From Terebella lapidaria (lineage: Eukaryota; Annelida; Polychaeta; Terebellida; Terebellidae), in contig OX424563.1 in the NCBI GenBank assembly GCA_949152475.1, positions 26,013,001 through 26,077,000 on the forward strand: 64,000 bases of DNA, read 5' to 3'. A program made the translations under genes and the position numbers. Numbering within the stretch: position 1 is the stretch's first letter; each line of letters starts with the position of its first letter. Positions 27,076 through 48,000 of this stretch are shown one piece after another. A model generated the notes under the pieces. That model saw nothing but the letters and a program-made list of their open reading frames with translations. It was not told the DNA's origin and did no database searches.

Positions 27076-30000
27076 CTATACAAAGTGGGCCTGTCCGTTG
27101 ACTAGTTGTCGAAGTTGACGCAACACGGCATCCAGTAGTTTCTTCTTGTCGCGTTCGTTTTTCTTGAAATGTGTGAACAGGTTGTTCTTCTTCTTGTCCG
27201 CATCTTTCAACCTATTTGGAAGAATAAAATAATTTGAATATTATGTATATGTACAAGTGAGTAAATATGAGTAGATATTTAATCGACTATGAGTGAACAT
27301 TTGCAAAAAAATGCACACATACATGTACTGCTTAAGAATACATGTAAACATCAAAATACCAAAGAATTTTTTTGTTTCGAGAGTTGACAAAACAAAGACA
27401 CTGACTTTTCCAGTAGAATAATACAAGTGGCTGGATTGACGCGCAGATATCGGTTCTGATCTTTGCCGAAATCCGCGATGTAATTCGTCCAATCCCAGGC
27501 CAGGAACAGGTCCATCAACTGTAGTGACAACAGAACATGACATTGAGACAGAATTTTCGATGTTTTGCGTCATTTAATATTGAAACTGAGATTTTAACGG
27601 CACTTGATTATATATTTGTCAAAGATAATTACATTTCTATTAATATTCTATTACTTATTACACATGTAATCTGAACAACTATGCCTTACTTGTCTAAGGT
27701 CCATGAACGCCAGAGATAAAGTCCCATCGTTCAGGCCAGGAACGGGGTTGGATGCCGCGAAATCTGACAGGAAAACGGAGAGAAAAATGCAAATAGCGAT
27801 ACATATCAACTGAAAAATTATGGCTGAAAAATCCTACTATACATGTAATGAGGAAAAAAAACCTCCAAGCTGACTTCTTCTTCAAAATAATAAAATTAAC
27901 ACACAAATTACAAAATTTTTTCTGAAAATTGTGTGACAGAAAAGTAGGATTGTGTGACAGAAAAGTAGGATTGTGTGACAGAAAAGTGTGACAGCACTGA
28001 CCTTCACACTGTTTGAGGTCAAGGTTGAACTGTTGAAGGACGCCTGGGGACATGGACTTTATCTCCTCATCCAGGAGCAACTCCAGCATTGACTGCGAGA
28101 TGTGCTTACACGCCGACATGCACGCAGTCTGGGCTACCTTGTTCTGTACAGGGTAAAACAGACTGTTAGATGTGCTTATATGACATATACCTATAACATA
28201 TGTACAGTTCTGTGTTTCAAGACAACCCAAGGGGGCCGCAAAACTGTGGTCTTAAATGACAGGTGCTCTCTCATAGCAGGTTCATTTGAGGTTAAGATGC
28301 CATTCGGGACCGAGGGAAGGGACCTCTAAAACCAGGGTGGTCTATCTCGACAGGTGGTCTTAAACACAGGATCCACTCTATACTATGCCATTTTTTTTTG
28401 CTAATTCAAAGTTATCCTGCACTCATGTGATATAAGTTTTATATATTTTTTATTTGATATTAGGCCTAGTGCTGAATTTATGTTCAATATTCCATGCTTT
28501 GTTAATCATGATAAATTCACAACCCCATAAGCCATAAATGATACAGACGACACAGAATTACGCCACTAACCGGGAGATTGGTGAAGGAGATGAAAGTGCT
28601 GCGTAGGAAGGCGATCAGATCTGTCATGTATTCGCTAGCCTCGGTGTCTGCTTCGACCGTCAGCCAATCATACGACGCTAGAAAGACACAAACAGTTACC
28701 ATGGAGATGGTGTATAACAATTGACAGTTATCATATGATAGCATCTTATTTTCATTGATGGCTTATGTTTCTGGCTATTTTGAGCATTTATATTATTTTC
28801 TTGTTATGAATTTCTCTGGGAATTTTCAGATGAAATATATATGTTTACTGAAACCATCATATTGATCAACCAAAATACTGAAAGGATTTCGCGTTTGAAC
28901 TATCATATTGATCAACCAAAATACAGAAAGGATCTCGAGTTCAAACCTAAATGGGTACATGATATATCTCACCTAGTTCGAAAAATTCATCGATTTTTTC
29001 ATTGATTTGTTTGTAGATTTGTTCTTCGGCTTCACTTCTGGCATCCTGTTGTGAAGATTTTTTTCAGGTAATATAGATTATAGTACATTTAAATACTTCA
29101 GAAATTGTACAACAATTTACATAAGTCTCCAACTTCCAAAAGCCCAAAATTATTCATCAATTGTAGGTATTTTCAGAAGAATACATGTACAGTGTACATT
29201 TGAATTAGTGTTTTGAAATACTTCTAAAAAGCACAGACCTTAAACATGGATGTTCCTTGTAGCTTGGACACATGAACACTGTCTTTCTCAGCACTGAAAT
29301 AGAGTAGTTTCCCATTGTCAATCTAATTAATATGTATTATTTGTATACTTGGATTTATTACAGTATGAGGAACAATACAAACCCAGTAATATTGGAGATA
29401 AAGTCTTCCAAGTAGGCACATGATATTTCAAGGTGGTTCATGTTGATCGAAATCTGGATTAACTGGAAAATCAAAATATGCATTTATAATGAATTCATTG
29501 TTTCATCTCTATACATCATATCATACCAAATTCACCAGTAATGAGTCTTGTGAATGATAAGTATTATGCCATGATATCTAGTGATTATCCAGGCAAAAAT
29601 ACCCGATACTATGTCAAGATTACATGACCAACATTATGATTACAAAATTTAGGATTGCATTATGATGAACATGCAAATCTATAATTCATTCTCAACAGTG
29701 AACATATTTCTAGGAGCAGTTAGAATACTTATACAAAAGTGTGAACAAATCTAACTCTGATTAGATCCTTAAATACACAATAATATTTGACTAGATGTCG
29801 CCACAGTGGGCAAGATAATTGATTCACACAAAGACAAGCAAATCGAGGCATGGAGCAAGGAAGCACAATATAGATTCAAATGAAAGACCTTTTTTTTTTA
29901 AACAACATTCATCTGGGCATGCAATACTGGTAAGAGGCAAATATCTGCAGTCGATTTGTTTTGCGGATTTTGCGGGGATATTTTTTCAACTGCAAAATTG

Positions 30001-33000
30001 AATCGACTGCAAATATTGTCTTCTATATACATAATACACATGACAGCTAAAATCCGCAAACTTATACTCCCCAAATTTGTCTGGACATGAAAACCGCAAA
30101 TACTTTTTACAGTAAAACACCAAATCTTTTGACAGTAGCACTACGGAAGAAAGAAACGTGCTGGAGTTTCTTTCGTTAACATTAGGCAACACCCTAACTA
30201 CAATTCACATCAGCTAAATTCAAACAAACATGGGGTAGTTGGAAACTGTTAGCATCTTGTGTAGAATATTAATAGACAGGTAGTTGGAAACATTAAATTG
30301 AGTAAATTTAAAATTCTGGTGGAATCAGAATCATGAAAGTTGCCATTGCACTAGCTCTCATTGAACAACATTGTTCACAATATACATGCATTTTCCTGTG
30401 TGAACATCAGTACCAACTTTCAACAACATACAAGGCGAGGCAGGAATTCGATTCCAAAGACAATATCAATGACTATTCAACATAAACATCAGAGGTTTAG
30501 GCATGCCTCTTTATTCAAAAATCTTCATGACATGCAAACACAGCAAGGATATTAACTGAGAAACCACATGCAACTCAAAGTTGATTCGTTCGGGTTGTAG
30601 TAAGCACTGGGGGAAGGTTAGACAGATGGGTGGGGCATGGGGGGATGAGATTGGGTGGTCGTGGTGGGGGGGTGCGGGGGGGGGGGGGGGGGGAGTTTGA
30701 ATGCTACCTGGACCAGACTGAGGTGGGGCTGGCGGATCAGTCCTGCAAGGCATCCGCCTAGCGTCCTCGTTAGCAGAATGTTTGCCAGCTTGCGGATCAT
30801 ATCGTCAATTTCCGTGCGACTGTTGGGCCACAACGAGACAGAGGGCAGGGCAACAGTAACAATTGTTGTTTATATACAAATTGGTTATATGCAGACTGTA
30901 CTACAATGGCATTACAAATGCCAAAGATTTGCAGGGAAATGAAAAAAAGATAAGTTGCATCCGAGCTGCAGCCCTGACTTCGAAATTGGGTAAATGCACT
31001 GATTCAAAGCAGAGTGACAAAAGAAGATGAAAAAATTTGGGAGAGTTCATTAATTCTGCAGAAGAACAAACAAATCACCAAGAAATTCAGACCGTTAGGT
31101 GTAATTTGTGTACACATGAATCCTTAAACCACTGAAATGTAAATACTTATATGTACATGTAAATACAACGTACAGTGGTCTATCTGATTTGAGATTTCAT
31201 GTTAACTTCAAAATACAGTAAAATGCAGAAGTTTCCTTACGTTTGATGGTACCAGATACTGTAAAACCAGAAATATCAGCATCCATAAGTTTAGCGTTTT
31301 CATGAAAGTGGACGTATCAGTGGCCATTTAATTCAGCGGGTGGATGACAGGGGGCATTTTCGGGCACCAGTGTTTTCTGACTTAGCGTCTATCAATATTA
31401 CCAATTTCTTTTTAAAACGCTAATTAAATAAATGGACACCAATACTTTCTGGGTATACAGTATAACTGAATACCATAATCCCATCAAATGGACCACTATA
31501 GAAAGAACCAGAAGAACATAATATTTATACAAGTTAAGATATTAACTACAGTGAGTATATATATATACATTTACACCTCAGTTTCCAGCCCTGACACCTG
31601 CAGCACACAACACCCCTCAAGCCGTAACCTTGGTAACAAAACCAGGCCGCAACCATGGTAACAAACCTGTGCGAGGGACAGGCGAGGCCCGTGTATGAGG
31701 TGCAGCAGGCTTTTTCGTAAGGTCTCTCCAAGCATTTTGCTGGCACCTTTGAATACCATCTCCTCTTTTTCAGTCATGCTAGGAGAGATGTACTCGGTAA
31801 AGTGGGGGAAACTGGGGACATGCACTGGTGCCGTTGCAATGATGCTATCTGTTGTTGTAATAAGAATCGATATCATGAGACAATCTGGCAATACTATTTT
31901 TTTGACGGTAAGTTGTCCATGACGGCACCTCCTTATACAACAAACAAACAAACGAACAGAGATTTATATTTTTCACGAAATATTCAGTGGAAATGAATAT
32001 ATCTATCAACATGTTCAAAGATCATTTCTAAATTATCATTTCATCACAACAGAAATAGTTCACACCACATATATATAACTCCGGTATATACTTATACATT
32101 TGATGAGCATTTATCAATTCTGCTAATTAATCGATGCAAATGAATTACATGTTTTCGAAAACTGGTTGAAAATCAGAAGTTCTAATTTTCATTCAATATA
32201 CAAAATCGAGTTGGTCAATTGTTGATGGACTGATCTGTTCCGCGTACAAATACCAACCTAAGGTGGAGATCCTCCGAAAACTTGAGGCAGGCGTAGATGT
32301 ACTCCTTGACTTGGCAGTACACCTTCGGCACGAACTGCGAAAATGGCAGTCGCTTTGGGAACGGTTCCTACAGGAAAAAAATTTGAGGTTTTTGTCTGGA
32401 TTTGAGTTTGTGAGGTTTTGTAACTATCATTAATATACTATGTAATCATGGCTAATGAGAAATGTATGAGAAATATGCACTATTTACGTTCATACCCCTA
32501 ATATTGCTGGGGATAAATAAACATACACAGAAATTTAATTTTCCTTATTCATGTTATGGAAGAAGATGCAACGAGACCTGAATAGCCATGTTTAAAAATT
32601 ACTTCACAAACTACTCATACACCATATACATCTAAGAAATATTCGTGTGACAAAACAGGCAACAAATCATTGCTACAATTTTTAATATCTCCCCCCTTGT
32701 ACCACCGACCTTCTCAAGCTGTTCGTCTCGGAAGGGGTAGATACTCGTGACCCGCTCCAAATCACCCTCCGACTCGGCCATGATCGGCGTGTAATTGTCC
32801 TCGGCAAATATCCCGTTGAAGACCTCGACCCACTTTCTCATGAGGATCTCACTGTACTGGTCTCTGCACACCGGTCACGAAAATCATACTTTAATGTCTC
32901 AATTTTGGTGAAATTTATCATTCAAAACTTTGAATCAGTACTAGTAAGTCAGTGAGTTTATTTGATTTCATTAGAAAGTATTTCATTTGAGGTTAATTTT

Positions 33001-36000
33001 TTGTAATTGAACAAATTTCACCATATATATTTATTTATAAAGACTAGAATAATTGTAAATATAACTGATGCTGGAATGCCAAATCAGCTCATAATATTTC
33101 CTTTTCCCTGTTGAATCACAAACCTGATATCCAGTAAAAGGTCATACAGCTGACTGACAGTGAAGCCATAACCCTGCAATAAGTATCGAGGCATTTACAA
33201 TACATGTATATGCAAAACCAATGTGTAAAACATACATATCATCATTTGTGTACTTTTCTTCCATACAGTGAAACTCAATTTCAGAATTTGCTACAAACAT
33301 TACTAGCTAAGTATTTTTTGTTTTTTACCATAAATTTAGACTTTTGAGAATGACGATACCTTCTGTTCTAGAACTATGACAGAATATGTACTTACTTTCA
33401 ATGTGTGACAAAACAGCATGACCAACTTCTTGATTTCCAACATCAAATTGGGATTTGTACAGAAACCCTGGAAAACAAACCAGGAAATATTTAATCATTT
33501 GAAAATGTTATATGATTGCAAAAGATCAAACACGGCTCTTTCAATAATGTTATGAGCATATGAACTATTTGAGACGTGAATTCATATAGCACTCGAATAA
33601 GTTTGAATTCTACATTGAACAGTGTTAATCTAAGTACAATTTTGACTGGTATTTAAAGTATAATTTTGACTGGTATTAAAGCTGTTCAGTTTTGACTATT
33701 TTGTACTTGTATGTATGCATTGCTTACAATATGCGTGCGTAGAACTGCAGTAAGTTTCGATAGAGCTGTGTCCCAAAGGTTATCTATGGTTGCCCGGGTA
33801 ACCAAGCCTGTTGTTGTGTTCAAAATATGGTCCTCCACAACAAAAAATCTGTGAATTAACAACAAGTATCATGTGAATATATAATGTATATGCAAACACA
33901 TAATTGCACCATAGATATACAACTTTTTCAATTAAGTAAAATGTTTGGTTGTGTGCCAGACATTGATTCGCTAATTGCTGCTTTAACCCAGTGATTTGGA
34001 ATGACTGAACAATATAAATAATTTCTTTTGATTTCTATATATTTTTCACTTTAGAGATACATGTATTATCATGATATATGAAAGCTATTTATACCCAATG
34101 ACATCATGGAAGTATTTCTTGTAACCGTCCAGGGCTTCATGCTGTGAAAGGCAAAAATAATACATATTTAAATTCCCTCCATGGAAAACATTTTAAAGAA
34201 TTTGAAAGACCAATATTATGCAATAAGCATGTATAAAATCTGAATGATAAAACTGATACTCAAAGAAACACACACTATTCGTACGAAAATTAGTGCACAA
34301 ATCAAAATTGTAATCAATTCATTTGGTTGAACGGTCTTAATAAAAGAGTCAAATAAATTTACACACGGAAGACAGGGAACAGATATAACAGACATATATG
34401 TGTCAAGTCAGAGCAAAACTATTATAATTTAACTTCTAGATGTAAAAGTGCTGTGCAGTGGAATTGATTTGTTAGTAAGGTCGTGAATCAGATTATCTGC
34501 AGTCATGTCACTCAGAAACGGTTGTGAATAAGATAATTAGTAAAGTTGTAAATTTCTCGAAAAAGTATGGGTGCCACCGAGAATTCCGTTTCATAAATGT
34601 ACAAGCTTACAGGGATAGTATCAATATGCGGTAGAGAACGAATGTTTCAAACAATTTAGGATATTCTTCCTGTAAACATTAAAGTACAAAACCTTTCACA
34701 ACATTATATCTTAACTTTTAGAAATTCAACAGATCTCAATATACAATACTCGTAGGGGCCTATTTCACGAAGCATCAAAAAATTAGCCCAAAGGCTAAGA
34801 TAGGTTACCGGACAATTTTGGTTTGGCCATGGCAGAATTGGCAGGTAACAGACCTTTTACCAATCAAGGTTCGCAGTGTAAACATATGACCTTGGGATTT
34901 ACCAATCAAGGTCATCCGTATGAACTTCGATGTTACCATTACATGTATGTGTGCGGCATTTGATATTCTATATGTTGGGTGGAATCGTTTAGGCCGCTTA
35001 GATCAATTTACACATTCCAAGTCAGACATTTGGCACTCAAGGTCATCTGACGTCAAGTTCAAGGTCATCATTAGTTGTGCCATATATGTCTTCCTATATG
35101 TTCATAATGCAAACATGAGCTCTATCTGCAAGCATTTCATCTATAGAGGCAAATCTGGGCATTTTTTGACCCCAAAATGGCTGTTTTGACCTTTCAAGGT
35201 CATCGAAGGTCGAATTCAAGGTCACCACATAAGTCGCCATATATGACTTCCTATTTGAAAGTGCCAATTTCTAAGCTCTATCTTCAAGCGTTCTATGAGT
35301 ACAGTCCGGACAGCTCCCATTATGAAGGAAAAAAGTGCAGAAAATTTTTCAAGTCCAAAATTTTTTTCAAAGGGTGAAAATTTTTTTTTTGCCTAGAAAT
35401 GGCTCAAAATGGATAGTAATGTTATTTGGGGCGAAAAAAATTTTTTTCGCCGACTCGTCAAAAATTCAAAATGGCCGCCACACTGAGATCGGCGATTCAA
35501 GGACAACAAAACATATACACATCACAGAGGTATATAAGAGGAATCTTTTTAAGCAAAAATCTCAAAACTGATCAGACAGTTTTTGAGAAAATACAGACCA
35601 GGTGCAAATTTGAGCGTTTTTCGAACCAAAAATGGCTGTTTTGACCTTTCAAGGTCATCCAAGGTCAAATTCAAGGTCACCACACAAGTCGCCATATATG
35701 ACTTCCCATTTGAAAGTGCCAATTTCTAAGCTCTATCTTCAAGCGTTCTATGAGTACAGTCCGGACAGCTCCCATTATGAAGGGAAAAAGTGCCGAAAAT
35801 TTTCTAAGTCCAAAATATTTTTCAAAGGGTGAAAAATTTTTTTTGCCCTAGAATTGGCCCAAAATGGATAGTAATGCGATTTGGGGCGAAAAAAATTTTT
35901 TCGCCGACCCGCCAAAAATTCAAAATGGCCGCCACACGGAAACCGGCAGATTTAGGGCAACCAAACTTATACATATCACAGAGGTATATGAGGGGAATCT

Positions 36001-39000
36001 TTTGAAACCAAAAACTCAAAACTGATCAGACAGTTTTCGAGAAAATGGCCGTCAAAGTCCAAAATTGAGCGTTTTTCGACAAAAACGGCCGCCATTTTGA
36101 AAAAAATGCGAAAATCAAAAAACAAAAAAATACCTCCTTCTCAAAATATTTTTAGGCATTTTTGTGCAAAATTTCAGAAAGATTCGATCGTTAACTTTAA
36201 AGATAAAAATGTTAACGCCGGACGGACGGACGGACGGACGGACGGACGGCCATACTCCCGCCAAGGGATTATGAGGTATTGTCCTTATGACGTACTTTTT
36301 GGCGTCATGTTCGTCCTTGTGAAGACACCTGATAAGGACAATGAAAATACTTGACAAGGACAGTCATATTCTACCTCACAAGGGAAATTAGGAGTACCTC
36401 ACAGGGCTACATCAGACCTACAGTCGGACAACTATCTCACAGGGTCTTAAAAGTACTTATAGTTGGACACTACCTCACACAGCCTACTTCAGAGCTACAG
36501 ATGAAAACTACCTCACAGGGACTACAACAGACCTGCAGTTGGACACTACCTCACAGGGACTACACCAGACCTACAGTTGGAAACTACCTCACAGGGACTA
36601 CACCAGACCTACAGTTGGACACTACCTCACAGGGCATACACCAGACCTACAGTTGGACACTACCTCACAGGTACTACACCTGACCTACAGTTGGACACTA
36701 CCTCACAGGGACTACACCAGACCTACAGTTGAACACTACCTCACAGGGACTACACCAGACCTACAGTTGGACACTACCTCACAGGGACTACACCAGACCT
36801 ACAGTTGGACACTACCTCACAGGGCCTACACCAGACCTACAGTTGGACACTACCTCACAGGGACTACACCAGACCTACAGTTGGACACTACCTCACAGAG
36901 ACTACACCAGACCTACAGTTGGACAATACCTCACAGGGCCTACATCAGACCTACAGTTGGACACTACCTCACAGGGACTACACCAGACCTGCAGTTGGAC
37001 ACTACCTCACAGGGACTACACCAGACCTACAGTTGGACACTACCTCACAGGGACTACACCAGACCTACAGTTGGACAATACCTCACAGGGCCTACATCAG
37101 ACCTACAGTTGGACACTACCTCCCAGGGACTACACCAGACCTACAATTGGACACTACCTCACAGGGACTACACCAGACCTACAGTTGGACACTACCTCAC
37201 AGGGACTACACCAGACCTACAGTTGGACACTACCTCACAGGGACTACACCAGACCTACAGTTGGACACTACCTCACAGGGCCTACATCAGACCTACAGTT
37301 GGACACTACCTCACAGGGCCTACATCAGACCTACAGTTGGACACTACCTCACAGGGCCTACACCAGACCTACAGTTGGACACTACCTCACAGGGACTACA
37401 CCAGACCTACAGTTGGACACTACCTCACAGGGCATACACCAGACCTACAGTTGGACACTACCTCACAGGTACTACACCTGACCTACAGTTGGACACTACC
37501 TCACAGGGCCTACATCAGACCTGCAGTTGGACACTACCTCACAGGGACTACACCAGACCTACAGTTGGACACTACCTCACAGGGACTACACCAGACCTAC
37601 AGTTGGACAATACCTCATAGGGCCTACATCAGACCTACAGTTGGACACTACCTCACAGGGACTACACCAGACCTACAGTTGGACACTACCTCACAGGGAC
37701 TACACAGACCTACAGTTGGACACTACCTCACAGGGCCTACACCAGACGTACAGTTGGACACTACCTCACAGGGACTACACCAGACGTACAGTTGGACACT
37801 ACCTCACAGGGACTACACCAGACCTACAGTTGGACACTACCTCACAGGGACTACACCAGACCTACAGTTGGACAATACCTCACAGGGCCTACATCAGACC
37901 TACAGTTGGACACTACCTCACAGGGACTACACCAGACCTACAGTTGGACACTACCTCACAGGGACTACACCAGACCTACAGTTGGACACTACCTCACAGG
38001 GACTACACCAGATCTACAGTTGGACACTACCTCACAGGGACTACACCAGACCTACAGTTGGACACTACCTCACAGGGACTACATCAGACCTACAGTTGGA
38101 CACTACCTCACAGGGACTACACCAGACCTACAGTTGGACACTACCTCACAGGGCCTACATCAGACCTACAGTTGGACACTACCTCACAGGGCCTACATCA
38201 GACCTACAGTTGGACACTACCTCACAGGGACTACACCAGACCTACAGTTGGACACTACCTCACAGAGACTACACCAGACCTACAGTTGGACAATACCTCA
38301 CAGGGCCTACATCAGACCTACAGTTGGAAACTACCTCACAGGGACTACACCAGACCTGCAGTTGGACACTACCTCACAGGGACTACACCAGACTTACAGT
38401 TGGACACTACCTCACAGGGACTACACCAGACCTACAGTTGGACAATACCTCACAGGGCCTACATCAGACCTACAGTTGGACACTACCTCACAGGGACTAC
38501 ACCAGACCTACAGTTGGACACTACCTCACAGGGCATACACCAGACCTACAGTTGGACACTACCTGACAGGTACTACACCTGACCTACAGTTGGACACTAC
38601 CTCACAGGGCCTACATCAGACCTGCAGTTGGACACTACCTCACAGGGACTACACCAGACCTACAGTTGGACACTACCTCACAGGGACTACACCAGACCTA
38701 CAGTTGGACAATACCTCACAGGGCCTACATCAGACCTACAGTTGGACACTACCTCACAGGGACTACACCAGACCTACAGTTGGACAATACCTCACAGGGC
38801 CTACATCAGACCTACAGTTGGAAACTACCTCACAGGGACTACACCAGACCTGCAGTTGGACACTACCTCACAGGGACTACACCAGACCTACAGTTGGACA
38901 CTACCTCACAGGGACTACACCAGACCTACAGTTGGACAATACCTCACAGGGCCTACATCAGACCTACAGTTGGACACTACCTCACAGGGACTACACCAGA

Positions 39001-42000
39001 CCTACAGTTGGACACTACCTCACAGGGCATACACCAGACCTACAGTTGGACACTACCTCACAGGTACTACACCTGACCTACAGTTGGACACTACCTCACA
39101 GGGCCTACATCAGACCTGCAGTTGGACACTACCTCACAGGGACTACACCAGACCTACAGTTGGACACTACCTCACAGGGACTACACCAGACCTACAGTTG
39201 GACAATACCTCACAGGGCCTACATCAGACCTACAGTTGGACACTACCTCACAGGGACTACACCAGACCTACAATTGGACACTACCTCACAGGGACTACAC
39301 CAGACCTACAGTTGGACACTACCTCACAGGGACTACACCAGACCTACAGTTGGACACTACCTCACAGGGACTACACCAGACCTACAGTTGGACACTACCT
39401 CACAGGGACTACACCAGCCCTACAGTTGGACACTACCTCACAGGGACTACACCAGACCTACAGATGGACACTACCTCACAGGGACTACATCAGACCTACA
39501 GTTGGACACTACCTCACAGGGACTACACCAGACCTACAGTTGGACACTACCTCACATCGACTACACCAGACCTACAGTTGGACACTACCTCACAGGGACT
39601 ACACCAGACCTACAGTTGGACACTACCTCACAGGGACTACACCAGACCTACAGTTGGACACTACCTCACAGGGACTACATCAGACCTACAGTTGGACACT
39701 ACCTCACAGGGACTACACCAGACCTACAGTTGGACACTACCTCACAGGGACTACATCAGACCTACAGTTGGACACTACCTCACAAGGACTACACCAGACC
39801 TGCAGTTTGACACTACCTCACAGGGCCTACACCAGACCTACAGTTGGACACTACCTCACAGGGACTACATCAGACCTACAGTTGGATACTACCTCACAGG
39901 GCATACACCAGACCTACCGTTGGACACTACCTCACAGGGACTACACCAGACCTACAGTTGGACACTACCTCACAGGCACTACACCAGACCTACAGTTGGA
40001 CACTACCTCACAGGGACTACACCAGACCTACAGTTGGACACTACCTCACAGGGCATACACCAGACCTACAGTTGGACACTACCTCACAGGGACTACACCT
40101 GACGTACAGTTGGACACTACCTCACAGGGCCTACATCAGACCTACAGTTGGACAGTACCTCACAGGGCCTACACCAGACCTACAGTTGGACACTACCTCA
40201 CAGGGACTACACCAGATGTACAGTTGGACACTACCTCACAGGGCCTACACCAGACGTACAGTTGGACACTACATCACAGAGACTACACCAGACCTACAGT
40301 TGGACACTACCTCACAGGGACTACACCATACCTACAGTTGGACACTACCTCACAGGGCCTACACCAGACGTACAGTTGGACACTACCTCACAGGGCATAC
40401 ACCAGATCTACAGTTGGACAATACCTCACAGGGACTACATCAGACCTACAGTTGGACACGACCTCACAGGGCCTACACCAGACCTACAGATGGACACTAC
40501 CTCACAGGGCCTACACCAGACCTACAGTTGGACACTACCTCACAGGGCATACACCAGATCTACAGTTGGACAATACCTCACAGGGACTACATCAGACCTA
40601 CAGTTGGACACGACCTCACAGGGCCTACACCAGACCTACAGATGGACACTACCTCACAGGGCCTACATCAGACCTGCAGATGGACACTACCTCACAGGGC
40701 CTACATCAAACCTGCAGTTGGACACTACCTCACAGGGACTACACCAGACCTACAGTTGGACACTACCTCACAGGGACTACACCAGACCTGCAGTTGGACA
40801 CTACCTCACAGGGACTACACCAGACCTGCAGTTGGACACTACCTCACAGGGACTACACCAGACCTACAGTTGGACACTACCTCACAGGGCCTACATCAGA
40901 CCTGCAGTTGGACACTACCTCACAGGGACTACACCAGACCTACAGTTGGACACTACCTCACAGGGACTACACCAGACCTACAGTTGGACACTACCTCACA
41001 GGGACTACACCAGCCCTACAGTTGGACACTACCTCACAGGGACTACACCAGACCTACAGTTGGACACTACCTCACAGGGACTACACCAGACCTACAGTTG
41101 GACACTACCTCACAGAGACTACACCAGACCTACAGTTGGACACTACCTCACAGGGACTACACCAGACCTACAGTTGGACACTACCTCACAGGGACTACAC
41201 CAAATCTACAGTTGGACACTACCTCACAGGGAGTACACCAGACCTACAGTTGGGTGCCATCATTGCAGGGTCATACGGAGATTATTGATTTTTAAAAATC
41301 ATTGATATGTGAATGTTTTTTTATAGCTGTATACAAAATTCAAGATTTCCATACTTGACAGGTTCTTGGGGGTTATTATTCCAACAGCAGAAATTGAAAT
41401 GGGATAGTAGCATGTGTTTATTGAATCTTGTGACAGTAAATGATTTTATTCATTATAGTTAAGGCATATATGATAACAAAATTGGCCTAAAGGCTAAGAC
41501 CGGTCACCGGACATGTTTTATATTTTAGCCACTTTATCCTGTTTATTTTTAATATAAGGTCCCTGGTCAAATCCAAGGTCATGGAAATATTCATCATGTA
41601 TCATTTCCTACATGTCCACAATTGATTCCTAATCTCTAATACCAATATAAAGCTCAGGAGAATTTAACATGGGAAAGTCCCATTTGGGCGAGTTTGGACC
41701 CAAACCCACTTGGAGTGATTCAAGGGCAACGAAACTTATACACAGGTACATATGAGAAGTGGTATGTATCAATAAGGAAAAGAGTTACTGAACAGATTTT
41801 GAGGAAACGACCGTCAATGTCCAAAATTGGCCGCCATTCTGAAAAAAATTTGCTGAAAAAAAAAATTACCTCCCTCCCGAAATAGTTTTATGCATTTTTG
41901 TGCAAAACTTCATTAAGATAAGATTGAAAACTTTTAAGATAGAAATGTAGACATACGACGACGACAGACGCAATGCCATGGCAATAGGTTATCGAATCGA

Positions 42001-45000
42001 AGGTCCGGTAACCAAAAACAAAGACAACCCAAAAATGTGATTCAAACGGCATGAATGGCCACGTTTATTTCTTATTCATATTGGATATTTTTTTGACAAT
42101 ATTGGCATAGGGTCTCATATGGAGTAGACCGCCACTTATTTGACTTTGCCGCATGGCGAAGAGACAATCTTTCTTCCCAGGTACTGTCTTTTGCCTCAAA
42201 TGGTCCCCAAAGAATGTCTTGACTTCACGAACTTCTTCTTCACTCCAATTCACATGAAGCCGTTTAGTTGACGTTCTACTTCCTACAACATATGAAACCA
42301 TTTTCAAACTATAGGAATGAAAACTAGAACAATATAACCCATGTGGTGAAAACTGCCTAGACAGTATCAATACTATAACATTTGAGCCTCACTTTGGCAC
42401 AATTCGACACTGTTGTATTGAAATACCTGATGGTTTCGGCAGATGTGGTCTAGCCTGGACACCAGTATCTGGAACCCAGTCCGGGTCAAGGTCAACGTCA
42501 TCGTCACGTTTGGGTATTCCATGCTTTCCTCCTGCAAAAAAAATGCATAGAATCAGACATACACAAGTTAGGGATTTTGGTAGAATATATTATTCAAACC
42601 CATTACATGAAAAGCACTAGATGAGATCCTTCACATGACAACACTTCAAAACACCCAAATTTGAAAATACCTGTCAATTTGAGGTATTTTGACGGTGGTG
42701 ATTTTGCTCTCTTGTTCTCTCTTGTGACCTCATCAGAAACTTTCCGTTTTTTTTGTCCTACAAAATTCACTAATCAAGTTCATATCAAACTATTACTTGT
42801 GCCTTGTGATATCAGACGAGTACACAATCACTATGCTGTCCCTGTCGTGTCTAAGGATAAAACACCATGTAACTGAACCTTCATCACCTGGATAATTCAG
42901 TACCTGAAATTTGCCCCCTGTTTGTCTCGCACTGTGCATTTTCATCATGGTCCTGATCGGAAGAATTTTCCACTCCTGCAAAAGAAAACCAGAGTTGGAC
43001 AAAGGCTTGTTCATTTTCACCATAACACACTACCTCACAAGGCCTACATCAAACATACAGTTGGACACTATCTCACAGCCCTACATCACACCTACAGTTG
43101 AACACTATCTCACAGGCCTACATCACACCTACAGTTGGACACTACCTCACAGGCCTAAACCAGACCTACAATGGGACACTACCTCACAGGGGCCCCACTA
43201 GACCCCAATTGGATACTTGACCTCACAGGGCCAACACCAGACCTACAGTTGGACACTACCTCACAGGGAGAACATCGGACCTAAAATTGGACATTGCCAA
43301 ATTCCTGTAGGAAGAAATGCAATACCTGGTGGACAATTCTCATCAGGGTCGCACTGAGCAGGTGGTGGCAACTGCTGTGGCTCATTCGCCAGGTTCGAAT
43401 CAGCGGATGATTCCTGAACAGTCAATCCTGCCAAGAAATTTAGTATAATTTGGTCATAAATTTTCTACCATAAACAAAAAATATTGCCTATTAACACCCT
43501 GGGTATACCAACCTTCAGTAGCAACGTATTCGGTCAGAGTCTTGTCAATTGCTGGAAATGAAAGAAGACAACTTATTACATAAAGGATAGTTTCTGGGTA
43601 ATTAAGGCAAGCTTCAGTCCAAAATAATGTCTTCGAAACAACTGACCAGTTATATCGATATTGTCGAGGTTATGCCCTCTGAACTTTCCAAGGACACCAT
43701 ATTCTGATGCAATCAGAAGTTTCGCGATTTTTGCCCTTTCGATTATCCCAGAAGTTTGGCGGTAGTGAGTCTCGTGCACACGTAATGTATGACCCAAGTG
43801 TCTGACAAGGTATTGCATGTGATTTTCTGGCAGGTCAAGAGTCTATAATAGAAAAACATGTATCATAATCAATAAGCATTCAACTATACGACTGGGATTC
43901 ATATCACACCTGAGATATCACACCTGGACAGATGTAGCTAAAGTCTTCCGCAACAGTGTAGATTTCATCAGTGCCGGGAAATCAAGTTGTACTTCTGCAC
44001 TACAAGCAATCTTCTGCAAAACTTCTCCAGCTCTCATCGGAAATTCACCTGCCAACACACCAAATCCACATAGTTACTTTATCAGGTCTACGCAAAGAAC
44101 TGAATTATAACCAGACCTTCAGATACCTGAAACAATACCTGATGTGGGGAAAATGTAAGGATTGTCGTCCTTTATGCGCGCCTGTTTTCTTTTGTCGTCA
44201 TCACACAGGAAAACCATCGCTGGTTTCGTGTCCCGGGGCACAATAATTGGCACACCTCTCCCAAACTTGCCCCTGACTATGAAAACATCTTGATCAGTAA
44301 CCAATTTCTTCTCGAGCTCAGATAGGTCAACTTGATCAGTCAGTTCATCATGGTTGTGCCGTTGTTTCCAGTTGTTAATTCTGAAAAAGGAAGATTATGT
44401 GATCAAGTGTTTATTCAAGATCAATCAGCTCAAGTGTATTAGCTTTTGCAAATACTAACAGGTTATTCAATATGTATGATAACTGTGGCAGTAAATTAGT
44501 ACCTCGCTCCCTCTAGCTCCCCTGGCCTTCTTTTGTTGTACGTGATAAGCCTTGCCATCGCATATTGTCCTACTTCCACAAATGTCATCTCCTCTTCATC
44601 AATAAGCTGCAGTTTTTCAGTGAGGAATGTTGTCAGCCTAGCACAATCTTCTGGCTTTGGTAATTTCACAGCTTTGTTGAATTTCCTCTCGTCCAGCAAT
44701 GCTTGGCACATGGAAGTCACTCTCTGCTTCCAGTCCGTCTTCATCATCCTCAGAAAACGTTCCCCTTCGAGAATGCAGGCTTCATTACCACTGGTGCCCA
44801 TCCCATGAGAGATTTTTGTTGCACATAGTCGTTCCAAATCATATCCCAGCTTAAGTGCAACACTGGGATGCTTGACCTCTTCTTCAAGGAAATCAATTTC
44901 TTCCCCTTTGTGACTGCACTTCAATGCTGCTTCAACAACTATGTCGAAATGACATGTTTTCAACAACGACTTCATGTCTGTTATGTCAAGTTCTGGCTTG

Positions 45001-48000
45001 TCCTCATCCGACTTGTAGATTTCACGTGCCATCATCAACAAATTTGCTGCAGCCCTAATTCTTTGTGACGAGTACTTGATTCTTTTTGACTTGTTCCTGA
45101 TGCATTTTCGATACCAGTACGCACCTAGTTTCTTCAAAAGCAGATCAGACTTGATGATTCGTGTGGCTTGGTCCATGCGCATGTGTCCAAATATTTTTCC
45201 CATTATTTTGGCATCCATCTTGTCAGTTTCCTCAACAGGCCTTTTCATTTCCTCAGCAATATAAACAAGCTCACCCTTCTTGTAGGTCACTTCTCTCTTC
45301 ATCACACATCTGTAACGCTGATGCTTAGCAATGTCCGCTAAGGCATACCAACCAAAGCAACACGAGCAGGCTCCATAAAGAGAAGTATCAAAGGCCTTTT
45401 CAGTACTTCTGCGAACAAGAAATATCTCTCCCTTCCTTTCTTGTAATACTTTGGTGTTATGAACATTGTTCCCCTTATTTCTGATGAACTCTATTGCTTG
45501 CCTCCTGGCCTTGCCACGCTTGCTGAGTCCTAATAGCCGAGCCACCTCCAGTTCATCTTCATGCTGTCCGATCACATGTTTGCTGAAATTACTCACAATT
45601 TTCGAACAGAAAAAACAGCAATTTCTGCTATTGAAGATTCTTTTGCCATCTTTCTTCATTACAAGCGACATATAGATGTTTGGGTATGTTTTATCGCAGA
45701 TACATCCCACTGGAGCTGTCGTCGCCACATCATAGTTAGTTTCACTTTCTGAATCATCTCCACTACTTGAACTCTCTTCGGACATCTCGGCAATTTCGGT
45801 TTCCTTCGAGTGGTGTGATATGTGTTCACCATCACTGCTTGAAAAATCTTCACACTGGGCAAGTTCGGCTCCCTTCAAATGGTCTGATATGCGTGGAATT
45901 GCCGGTAATATCACAGGACTTGTGTCACGTGAATCACTGCCATCAACAATATCCTCGGAATTAGTCCGGACTCCAGCTCTCCTCTTGCCACTGATGCTAT
46001 TACTTCTGCGTCTAGATCCTTTCTTCGAAAGTGTACGTTTTCTGGGACGTGAAACTCGCAAGACATCAGTGAACTCCTGGTCAACAGCAACTGGCTGGTC
46101 AAGATGACCGGGTTGGATGGCATCGGGTTCTTTGTCGGCGACTGGCTGGTCGGGGTGAACAGGTTGGATGGCATCGGGTTCTTTGTCGGCGACTGGCTGG
46201 TCGGGGTGAACAGGCTGGATGGCATCGGGTTCTTTGTCGGCGACTGGCTGGTCGGGGTGAACAGGCTGGATGGCATCGGGTTCTTTGTCAGCGACTGGCT
46301 GGTCGGGGTGAACAGGTTGGATGGCATCTGAATCCTTGTCGGCGACTGCCTGGTCGGGGTGAACAGGTTGGATGGCATCTGACTCCTCGCCGGCGACTGG
46401 CTGGTCGGGGTGAACAGGTTGGATGGCATCTGACTCCTTGTCGGGGACTGGCTGGTCGGGGTGAACAGGTTGGATGGCATCTGACTCCTTGTCGGGGACT
46501 GGCTGGTCAGGGTGAACAGGTTGGATGGCATCTGACTCCTTGTCGGGGACTGGCTGGTCGGGGTGAAAAGGTTGGATGGCATCTGACTCCTTGTCGGCGA
46601 CTGGCTGGTCGGGGTGAAAAGGTTGGATGGCATCTGACTCCTCGCCGGCGACTGTCTGGTCGGGGTGAACAGGTTGGATGGCATCTGACTCCTCGTCGGC
46701 GACTGGCTGGTCGGGGTGAACAGGTTGGATGGCATCTGACTCCTCGTCGGCGACTGGCTGGTCGGGGTGAACAGGTTGGATGGCATCTGACTCCTTGTCG
46801 GCGACTGGCTGGTCGGGGTGAAAAGGTTGGATGGCATCTGACTCCTTGTCGGCGACTGGCTGGTCGGGGTGAAAAGGTTGGATGGTATCTGACTCCTCGC
46901 CGGCGACTGTCTGGTCGGGGTGAACAGGTTGGATGGCATCTGACTCCTCGTCGGCGACTGGCTGGTCGGGGTGAACAGGTTGGATGGCATCTGACTCCTC
47001 GCCGGCGACTGGCTGGTCGGGGTGAACAGGTTGGATGGCATCTGACTCCTCGCCGGCGACTGTCTGGTCGGGGTGAACAGGTTGGATGGCATCCGACTCC
47101 TCGTCGGCGACTGGCTGGTCGGGGTGAACAGGTTGGATGGCATCTGACTCCTCGCCGGCGACTGGCTGGTAGGGGTGAACAGGTTGGATGGCATCTGACT
47201 CCTCGCCGGCGACTGTCTGGTCGGGGTGAACAGGTTGGATGGCATCCGACTCCTCGTCGGCGACTGGCTGGTCGGGGTGAAAAGGTTGGATGGCATCTGA
47301 CTCCTCGCCGGCGACTGGCTGGTAGGGGTGAACAGGTTGGATGGCATCTGACTCCTCGCCGGCGACTGTCTGGTCGGGGTGAACAGGTTGGATGGCATCC
47401 GACTCCTCGTCGGCGACTGGCTGGTCGGGGTGAACAGGTTGGATGGCATCTGACTCCTTGTCGGCGACTGGCTGGTCGGGGTGAACAGGTTGGATGGCAT
47501 CTGACTCCTCGTCGGCGACTGGCTGGTCGGGGTGAACAGGTTGGATGGCATCTGACTCCTTGTCGGCGACTGGCTGGTCGGGGTGAACAGGTTGACCACC
47601 AAGGGATCGTGTGGCACTCTGTGGATCGTGGAAATAAAACTTGTTGAATGTTAGTTAGATGAATATATAGTTTTCCTAAACATCAAAAAGTCAAGATGAT
47701 ATTCTGAACCTTTATTACTGACCGATGCTCGATCTGGCTGCAATTTGTCAATTTGTGCAACCCATTCCACATCACACAGAAATGCCTCCAGGGTTTTCAC
47801 TTTTGCCTTCAGACAAGCTAGTAATAATAAAATGAAAAATAATAATCAGTGGAGACCTGCTTTAGGTGAGGAAACGCTGCACATACCAATTTGAAAAATA
47901 TTTAATTCAATGTATTTCATGTCGAGTAACATGCTATATGCAATCATTATCTGCATTCATAATACAGATTATCTCCAGTTTTGACAGAATAATTCATGTG

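Follow-up and report, generated by a model that had tools for sequence, protein, structure and literature searches.

A tandem pair of frame-locked, probably mutually exclusive exons in the exocyst gene Sec15 of the annelid Terebella lapidaria

Sec15 is a subunit of the exocyst, the complex that tethers secretory vesicles, and vertebrates carry it as the paralogue pair EXOC6 and EXOC6B. Variation by splicing has been described as well: oligodendrocytes have an alternative exon of Exoc6b (PMC6952364), and splicing reportedly gives isoforms of exocyst subunits in mammals (PMC4828438). Other genes vary a protein segment by means of mutually exclusive exons. Human tandem duplicated exons of this class carry mostly conservative substitutions and stem from mostly ancient events, and the main text of the report on them mentions neither EXOC nor the exocyst (PMC9741552). 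Exons 6a and 6e of coq-2, of 134 nt in C. elegans, are mutually exclusive in nematodes, annelids and molluscs (PMC7434440). The choice within a pair can be directed by Fox proteins, for which UGCAUG is the site of action and which repress one exon in favour of its partner, as occurs with exons 8 and 9 of FGFR2 and with exons 5A and 5B of C. elegans egl-15 (PMC2880598). Here we describe two tandem exons, A and B, in the Sec15 gene of an annelid. Our preferred reading, to which we assign a probability of about 0.8, is that an old tandem duplication would have been kept as a mutually exclusive exon pair, exon B being of the ancestral type and exon A the faster-evolving copy, with RBFOX as a candidate for making the choice between them.

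The window, by which we mean the whole stretch of 64 kb that was analysed (C9:26013001-26077000), contains the Sec15/EXOC6 gene on its minus strand. The C-terminal half of the gene, from exon x1 to the stop codon (27076..34141, minus strand), was assembled by hand from splice sites, and each isoform consists of 15 exons with A or B counted once; all exons of the model are preceded by AG and all except the last are followed by GT. The B form of this half comprises 481 residues and matches Sec15 of fly in the structure 2A2F (E 5.9e-92) and Sec15 of yeast in 5YFP/6VKL (E 1.6e-13). Both isoforms match the Sec15_C profile (PF04091) along its full length, positions 1-348 of 348, with 368.7 bits for B and 358.5 bits for A, which agrees with the initial annotation in placing the exons in the C-terminal half of Sec15/EXOC6. 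A profile search of the genome (761.6 Mb in 438 contigs) located three EXOC6_Sec15_N matches on the minus strand of the window, at 61865-62065, 62278-62466 and 62685-62810, and no further genomic match to Sec15_N among the seven candidates scored. These stretches (from 61.9 kb, 61865-62810) and the C-terminal half (up to 34.1 kb) presumably belong to one transcript. No second Sec15_C or Sec15_N locus was found in the genome among the best candidates scored, nor was a second genomic copy or haplotype found with which the exon pair could be compared.

The interval that separates the N-terminal matches of Sec15 from its C-terminal half holds a satellite-like array with a 38-bp unit in about 128 copies (36395-41253), and a 37-bp array at 43027-43293 resembles it. 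The same interval contains a stop-free frame of 1052 residues on the minus strand (44499-47654), which has no Pfam match and much of which is filled by a 51-bp (17-residue) tandem repeat in 29.5 copies (46090-47594); this frame is perhaps a mobile-element gene. Elsewhere in the assembly, a contig of 15,973 bases has a COX1 frame that is open under the invertebrate mitochondrial code, the code chosen for it, and the genes next to it, as read by eye, give the series nad3-nad2-cox1-cox2-atp8-cox3, a gene order of annelids that suggests an annelid source. Contig C417 (61,412 bases) carries a second, very different COX1 frame that is read with code 4, and our guess is that the contig is perhaps the mitochondrial genome of a protist.

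Exon A (31667..31778, minus strand) and exon B (30708..30819, minus strand) are both 112 nt long and lie between a common upstream exon, x6 (32258..32367, minus strand), ending in ...DLHL plus AG, and a common downstream exon, x8 (29383..29462, minus strand), which encodes LIQISINMNHLEISCAYLEDFISNIT followed by GG. The diverged copy, A, encodes (S)MTEKEEMVFKGASKMLGETLRKSLLHLIHGPRLSLAQ, and the conserved Sec15 copy, B, encodes (S)RTEIDDMIRKLANILLTRTLGGCLAGLIRQPHLSLVQ. Each of them has AG before it and GT after it, in the same phase, and the donor at 32258 (...CTTAG/gttggt) and the acceptor at 29462 are common to the two. The Ser codon split at the x6 junction is rebuilt from AG+C with A and from AG+T with B, and either exon alone gives a full open Sec15 C-terminal half. 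When A and B are joined together the product reads ...SLAQSHGN and meets a stop after these last four codons, and when both are skipped it reads ...LHLS, with the stop directly after the Ser. Exclusivity is therefore enforced at least by the frame, 112 nt being 3n+1, and the use of both exons or of none leads to an early stop. The initial annotation had reported tandem 112-nt exons of equal phase with 16 of 37 identical residues, a Ser codon formed from AG plus T or C, and a frame that breaks with both or none; coordinates, splice phase and identity all agree with that description, as do the two Ser codons.

Since only one of the two interchangeable exons is usable per working transcript, the animal probably makes two versions of Sec15. 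The two exons would encode one segment of the C-terminal rod of Sec15, so that the swap would be confined to that segment. The double-inclusion and double-skipping mRNAs would give a truncated protein or, presumably, be removed by nonsense-mediated decay.

After the split Ser 16 of 37 residues are identical in A and B (43% identity), or 17 of 38 with the Ser included, and at the DNA level 56 of 112 bases are the same. The ungapped BLOSUM62 score of A against B is 61 over 38 residues, a value reached by none of 200,000 shuffles, whose maximum was 34. With B as query in the six frames of the 64 kb window, exon A is the sole other stretch scoring above 30. A scan of the window for duplicates with 15 exon queries (x2-x6, A, B and x8-x15, that is, all exons except x1) gave the same picture: A and B find each other at 57, the next best scores being 24 for B and 35 for A, and the second-best scores of the other 13 queries range from 16 to 41, with no clear duplicate in the window. 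The DNA of exon A has a single match in the genome, which is exon A itself. Scans of collections of prokaryotic and viral contigs, the former with the B form (genome_contigs) and the latter with the A form (viral_contigs), brought no confirmed relative, as was to be expected of such collections.

The splice sites of the pair show a reciprocal arrangement. When compared with the gene's own sites, using a matrix of 13-14 sites from which A and B were left out (each of the other sites was itself left out of the matrix when it was scored, whereas A and B were compared with the full set of other sites), the acceptor of A obtains -2.6, the lowest of 16, and that of B 9.4, the second highest; the donor of A obtains 10.2, the second highest of 15, and that of B 3.0, the third lowest. 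The numbers of pyrimidines before the acceptor are equal in A and B (16/23 for both), so the acceptor of A is maybe less poor than its score. The choice between A and B would probably be set by these reciprocal weak splice sites together with a trans-acting factor.

The motif TGCATG, the RBFOX consensus, is found upstream of exon A at 31819..31824 on the minus strand, with 40 nt separating it from the exon. Five further copies are located on the minus strand in the intron after B, in a stretch covering 29670..30572, their first bases being 30572, 30536, 30390, 29923 and 29675. The intron that separates A from B is free of the motif, and so are, on the minus strand, the 17 kb upstream of the copy before exon A. 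Ten motif classes were counted and TGCATG was chosen post hoc, and with this reservation the five copies in the 1,245-nt intron after B stand against 0.5-0.6 expected. The copy just upstream of A would hinder the acceptor of A, the five copies downstream of B would help its poor donor, and cells rich in RBFOX would make Sec15-B, other cells making more Sec15-A. On contig C1 the genome has an exon with an RBFOX-like RRM half, which is 80% identical to an RBFOX segment across 35 residues and is the best of the 15 genomic matches of a 79-residue RRM query; no separate close match to the first half of this query was found in the genome. A search of the genome for the Fox-1_C domain was empty, and in it no control was detected either. 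TGCATG is only the fifth among the hexamers with at least four copies in the intron after B, where poly-C motifs (20 against 1.2 expected), TCAT (15 against 7.3) and motifs of the CELF type (4 against 1.4) are also in excess, and the intron between A and B has an excess of the PTB type (9 against 3.9). For this reason RBFOX, the best candidate factor for a switch towards B, is proposed tentatively, with doubt outweighing confidence. An uninterrupted stretch of 18 C (30676-30693, minus strand) begins 14 nt past the end of exon B, and it could bind poly-C proteins, with an effect on the low-scoring donor of B.

There is only a little less than an even chance that the exon pair is real and that the choice is made without RBFOX, through competition between splice sites, a different splicing factor or pairing of the RNA, in combination with decay of the double-exon form. 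Such a choice would be in keeping with the reciprocal site scores, with the excess of other motif classes, poly-C foremost, and with the early stops held by the both and none forms. The pairing of whole introns also points in this direction, as the first and the middle intron pair more stably than in 40 of 40 shuffles, the other two intron pairs being ordinary (12 of 40 and 21 of 40 shuffles as stable). However, local pairings are ordinary in all three intron pairs, where 3, 10 and 9 of 12 simulations were equal or better (the controls were first-order Markov resamples, not exact dinucleotide shuffles), and the excess and the placement of TGCATG would require another reason. RNA docking sites as enforcers of exclusivity are not convincingly supported, the whole-intron signal being present in one pair and the local search being unremarkable.

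The two exons differ in their closeness to fly Sec15. A 98-residue stretch scores 101.6 bits against fly 2A2F with B and 70.8 bits with A, and the identity to fly Sec15 is 18/37 for B and 10/37 for A. The initial annotation had regarded version A as conserved and B as diverged; these roles are reversed, provided that its A denotes the exon that comes first in the transcript, which is what the order of its junctions implies. At the 19 positions where B and fly differ, A is equal to B at seven and to fly at one. This siding of A with B suggests, with fly as the one outgroup, that the duplication postdates the split from the fly lineage and that A has evolved faster. Exon A retains 9 of the 18 residues common to B and fly and 7 of the 19 elsewhere (P 0.51), a difference that is not significant, and a preferential retention of the most conserved residues in A was therefore not found.

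A copy so much further from fly than its neighbour (10/37 against 18/37), and with the lowest of the 16 acceptor scores in the gene model, might be a duplicate in decay, included in transcripts seldom or not at all, whose frame and splice sites merely persist so far. We consider this improbable. A neutral copy at 50% DNA identity should usually show stops, indels or broken splice sites, and the donor of exon A ranks second of 15 in the gene. In a neutral simulation that starts from B, introduces mutations towards A and takes no account of indels or splice sites, a fraction of 0.0001 of 20,000 runs at 56/112 DNA identity is free of stops with 16 or more residues still identical, that is, about 1 in 10,000 for frame and protein similarity alone. 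The identity between the DNA of A and B is distributed by codon position as 22/37 at the first, 21/37 at the second and 13/38 at the third, and positions 1 and 2 taken together (43/74) differ from the third (13/38; Fisher P 0.027). The Sec15_C score is 97.3 bits with B, 88.3 with A and 49.4 when X replaces the residues of the exon; eight shuffled exons, half of them derived from A and half from B, all gave 58.4-63.9 bits, and exon A thus exceeds every one of them by 24-30 bits. Third codon positions have a GC content of 0.59 in exon A and of 0.68 in exon B, the remaining exons of the gene lying between 0.29 and 0.78, and the three introns around A and B have 34-37% GC. In our reading, exon A would encode a Sec15-like fold under selection with changed details and would not be a dead copy.

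It is very improbable that exon A is not an internal alternative exon and instead begins the coding part of a short transcript made from a promoter within the gene. It opens in the Sec15 frame with C-ATG-ACT, an in-frame ATG directly after its first base, but this Met may be a coincidence. The AG acceptor of exon A corresponds exactly in position to that of exon B, and joining exon A to x6 restores both the Ser codon and the frame.

Within exon residues 1-30, 10 of the 14 hydrophobic positions of B are still hydrophobic in A, those lost being I4K, L11G, I14K and C23S. The two versions had been thought to differ in charge and in hydrophobicity; the second difference stands, with a mean hydropathy of -0.21 in A and 0.24 in B, and the first does not, the net charge (K, R, D and E counted) being +2 in both. 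A remodelling of one helix face was also considered and rejected, since the radical substitutions do not cluster on one face (P 0.27).

The exon maps to residues 101-138 of the 2A2F chain, within the crystallised C-terminal domain of Sec15. Sec15 and Rab11 were reportedly studied by Wu et al. in 2005, and Asn659 is, as we assume, the Rab11 residue of fly Sec15. The swapped exon is probably upstream of the Rab11-binding helix, which would follow 70-140 residues further downstream, an estimate derived from the Sec6 helix 624-645, from Asn659 and from the Sec6-Sec15 ranges of PMC2635961. On this estimate the idea of a changed Rab partner, first suggested for this exon pair, has no direct support as stated. 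The swap could instead keep the fold while altering the packing of the rod or its contacts with partners and leaving the Rab11 site itself as it is, and such altered packing or contacts are as likely as a switch of Rab partner.

Mutually exclusive exons arranged in tandem are a familiar phenomenon, annelids included (coq-2, PMC7434440), and it is the Sec15 pair that is likely to be new: no published mutually exclusive exon pair of Sec15 was found in the open-licence literature, in line with the earlier remark that no switch of such kind was known in this gene. In the human tandem exons, as here, adjacent homologous exons swap one protein segment (PMC9741552); the present pair differs from them in belonging to an exocyst subunit, in the 43% identity between A and B and in being known from genomic sequence alone. 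The resemblance to coq-2 is found in the identical length of the two exons, not a multiple of three, and in the presence of one exon common to other animals and of one that is special, whereas coq-2 encodes an enzyme for which a switch of substrate is known and RNA-seq gives support, and the Sec15 pair is seen in the DNA only (PMC7434440). As for the regulation, the FGFR2 site precedes the exon that is repressed and is intronic, like the TGCATG before exon A; however, it is placed between the two FGFR2 exons, and both site and factor were tested, while the intron between A and B of Sec15 is devoid of TGCATG and the case consists of a motif pattern (PMC2880598). The EXOC6/EXOC6B pair, the alternative Exoc6b exon (PMC6952364) and the exocyst isoforms (PMC4828438) likewise provide variation of Sec15 or of the complex in one animal, partly by splicing, but they represent a pair of paralogues, one alternative exon by itself or isoforms, whereas here one Sec15 locus was found with two versions of an exon. 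One gene and a splice switch might then produce two exocysts differing in a segment of the Sec15 rod, as a counterpart of EXOC6/EXOC6B in which RBFOX would choose the tether for each cell type, an extension of the argument that we regard as unlikely. Should both isoforms be produced, this core subunit of the tether, apparently encoded by one gene, would exist in two versions in one animal, and the role of the segment would be open to a direct question, namely which partner, cargo or cell type requires each version; the exocyst would moreover be added to the annelid exon switches of which coq-2 is an example.
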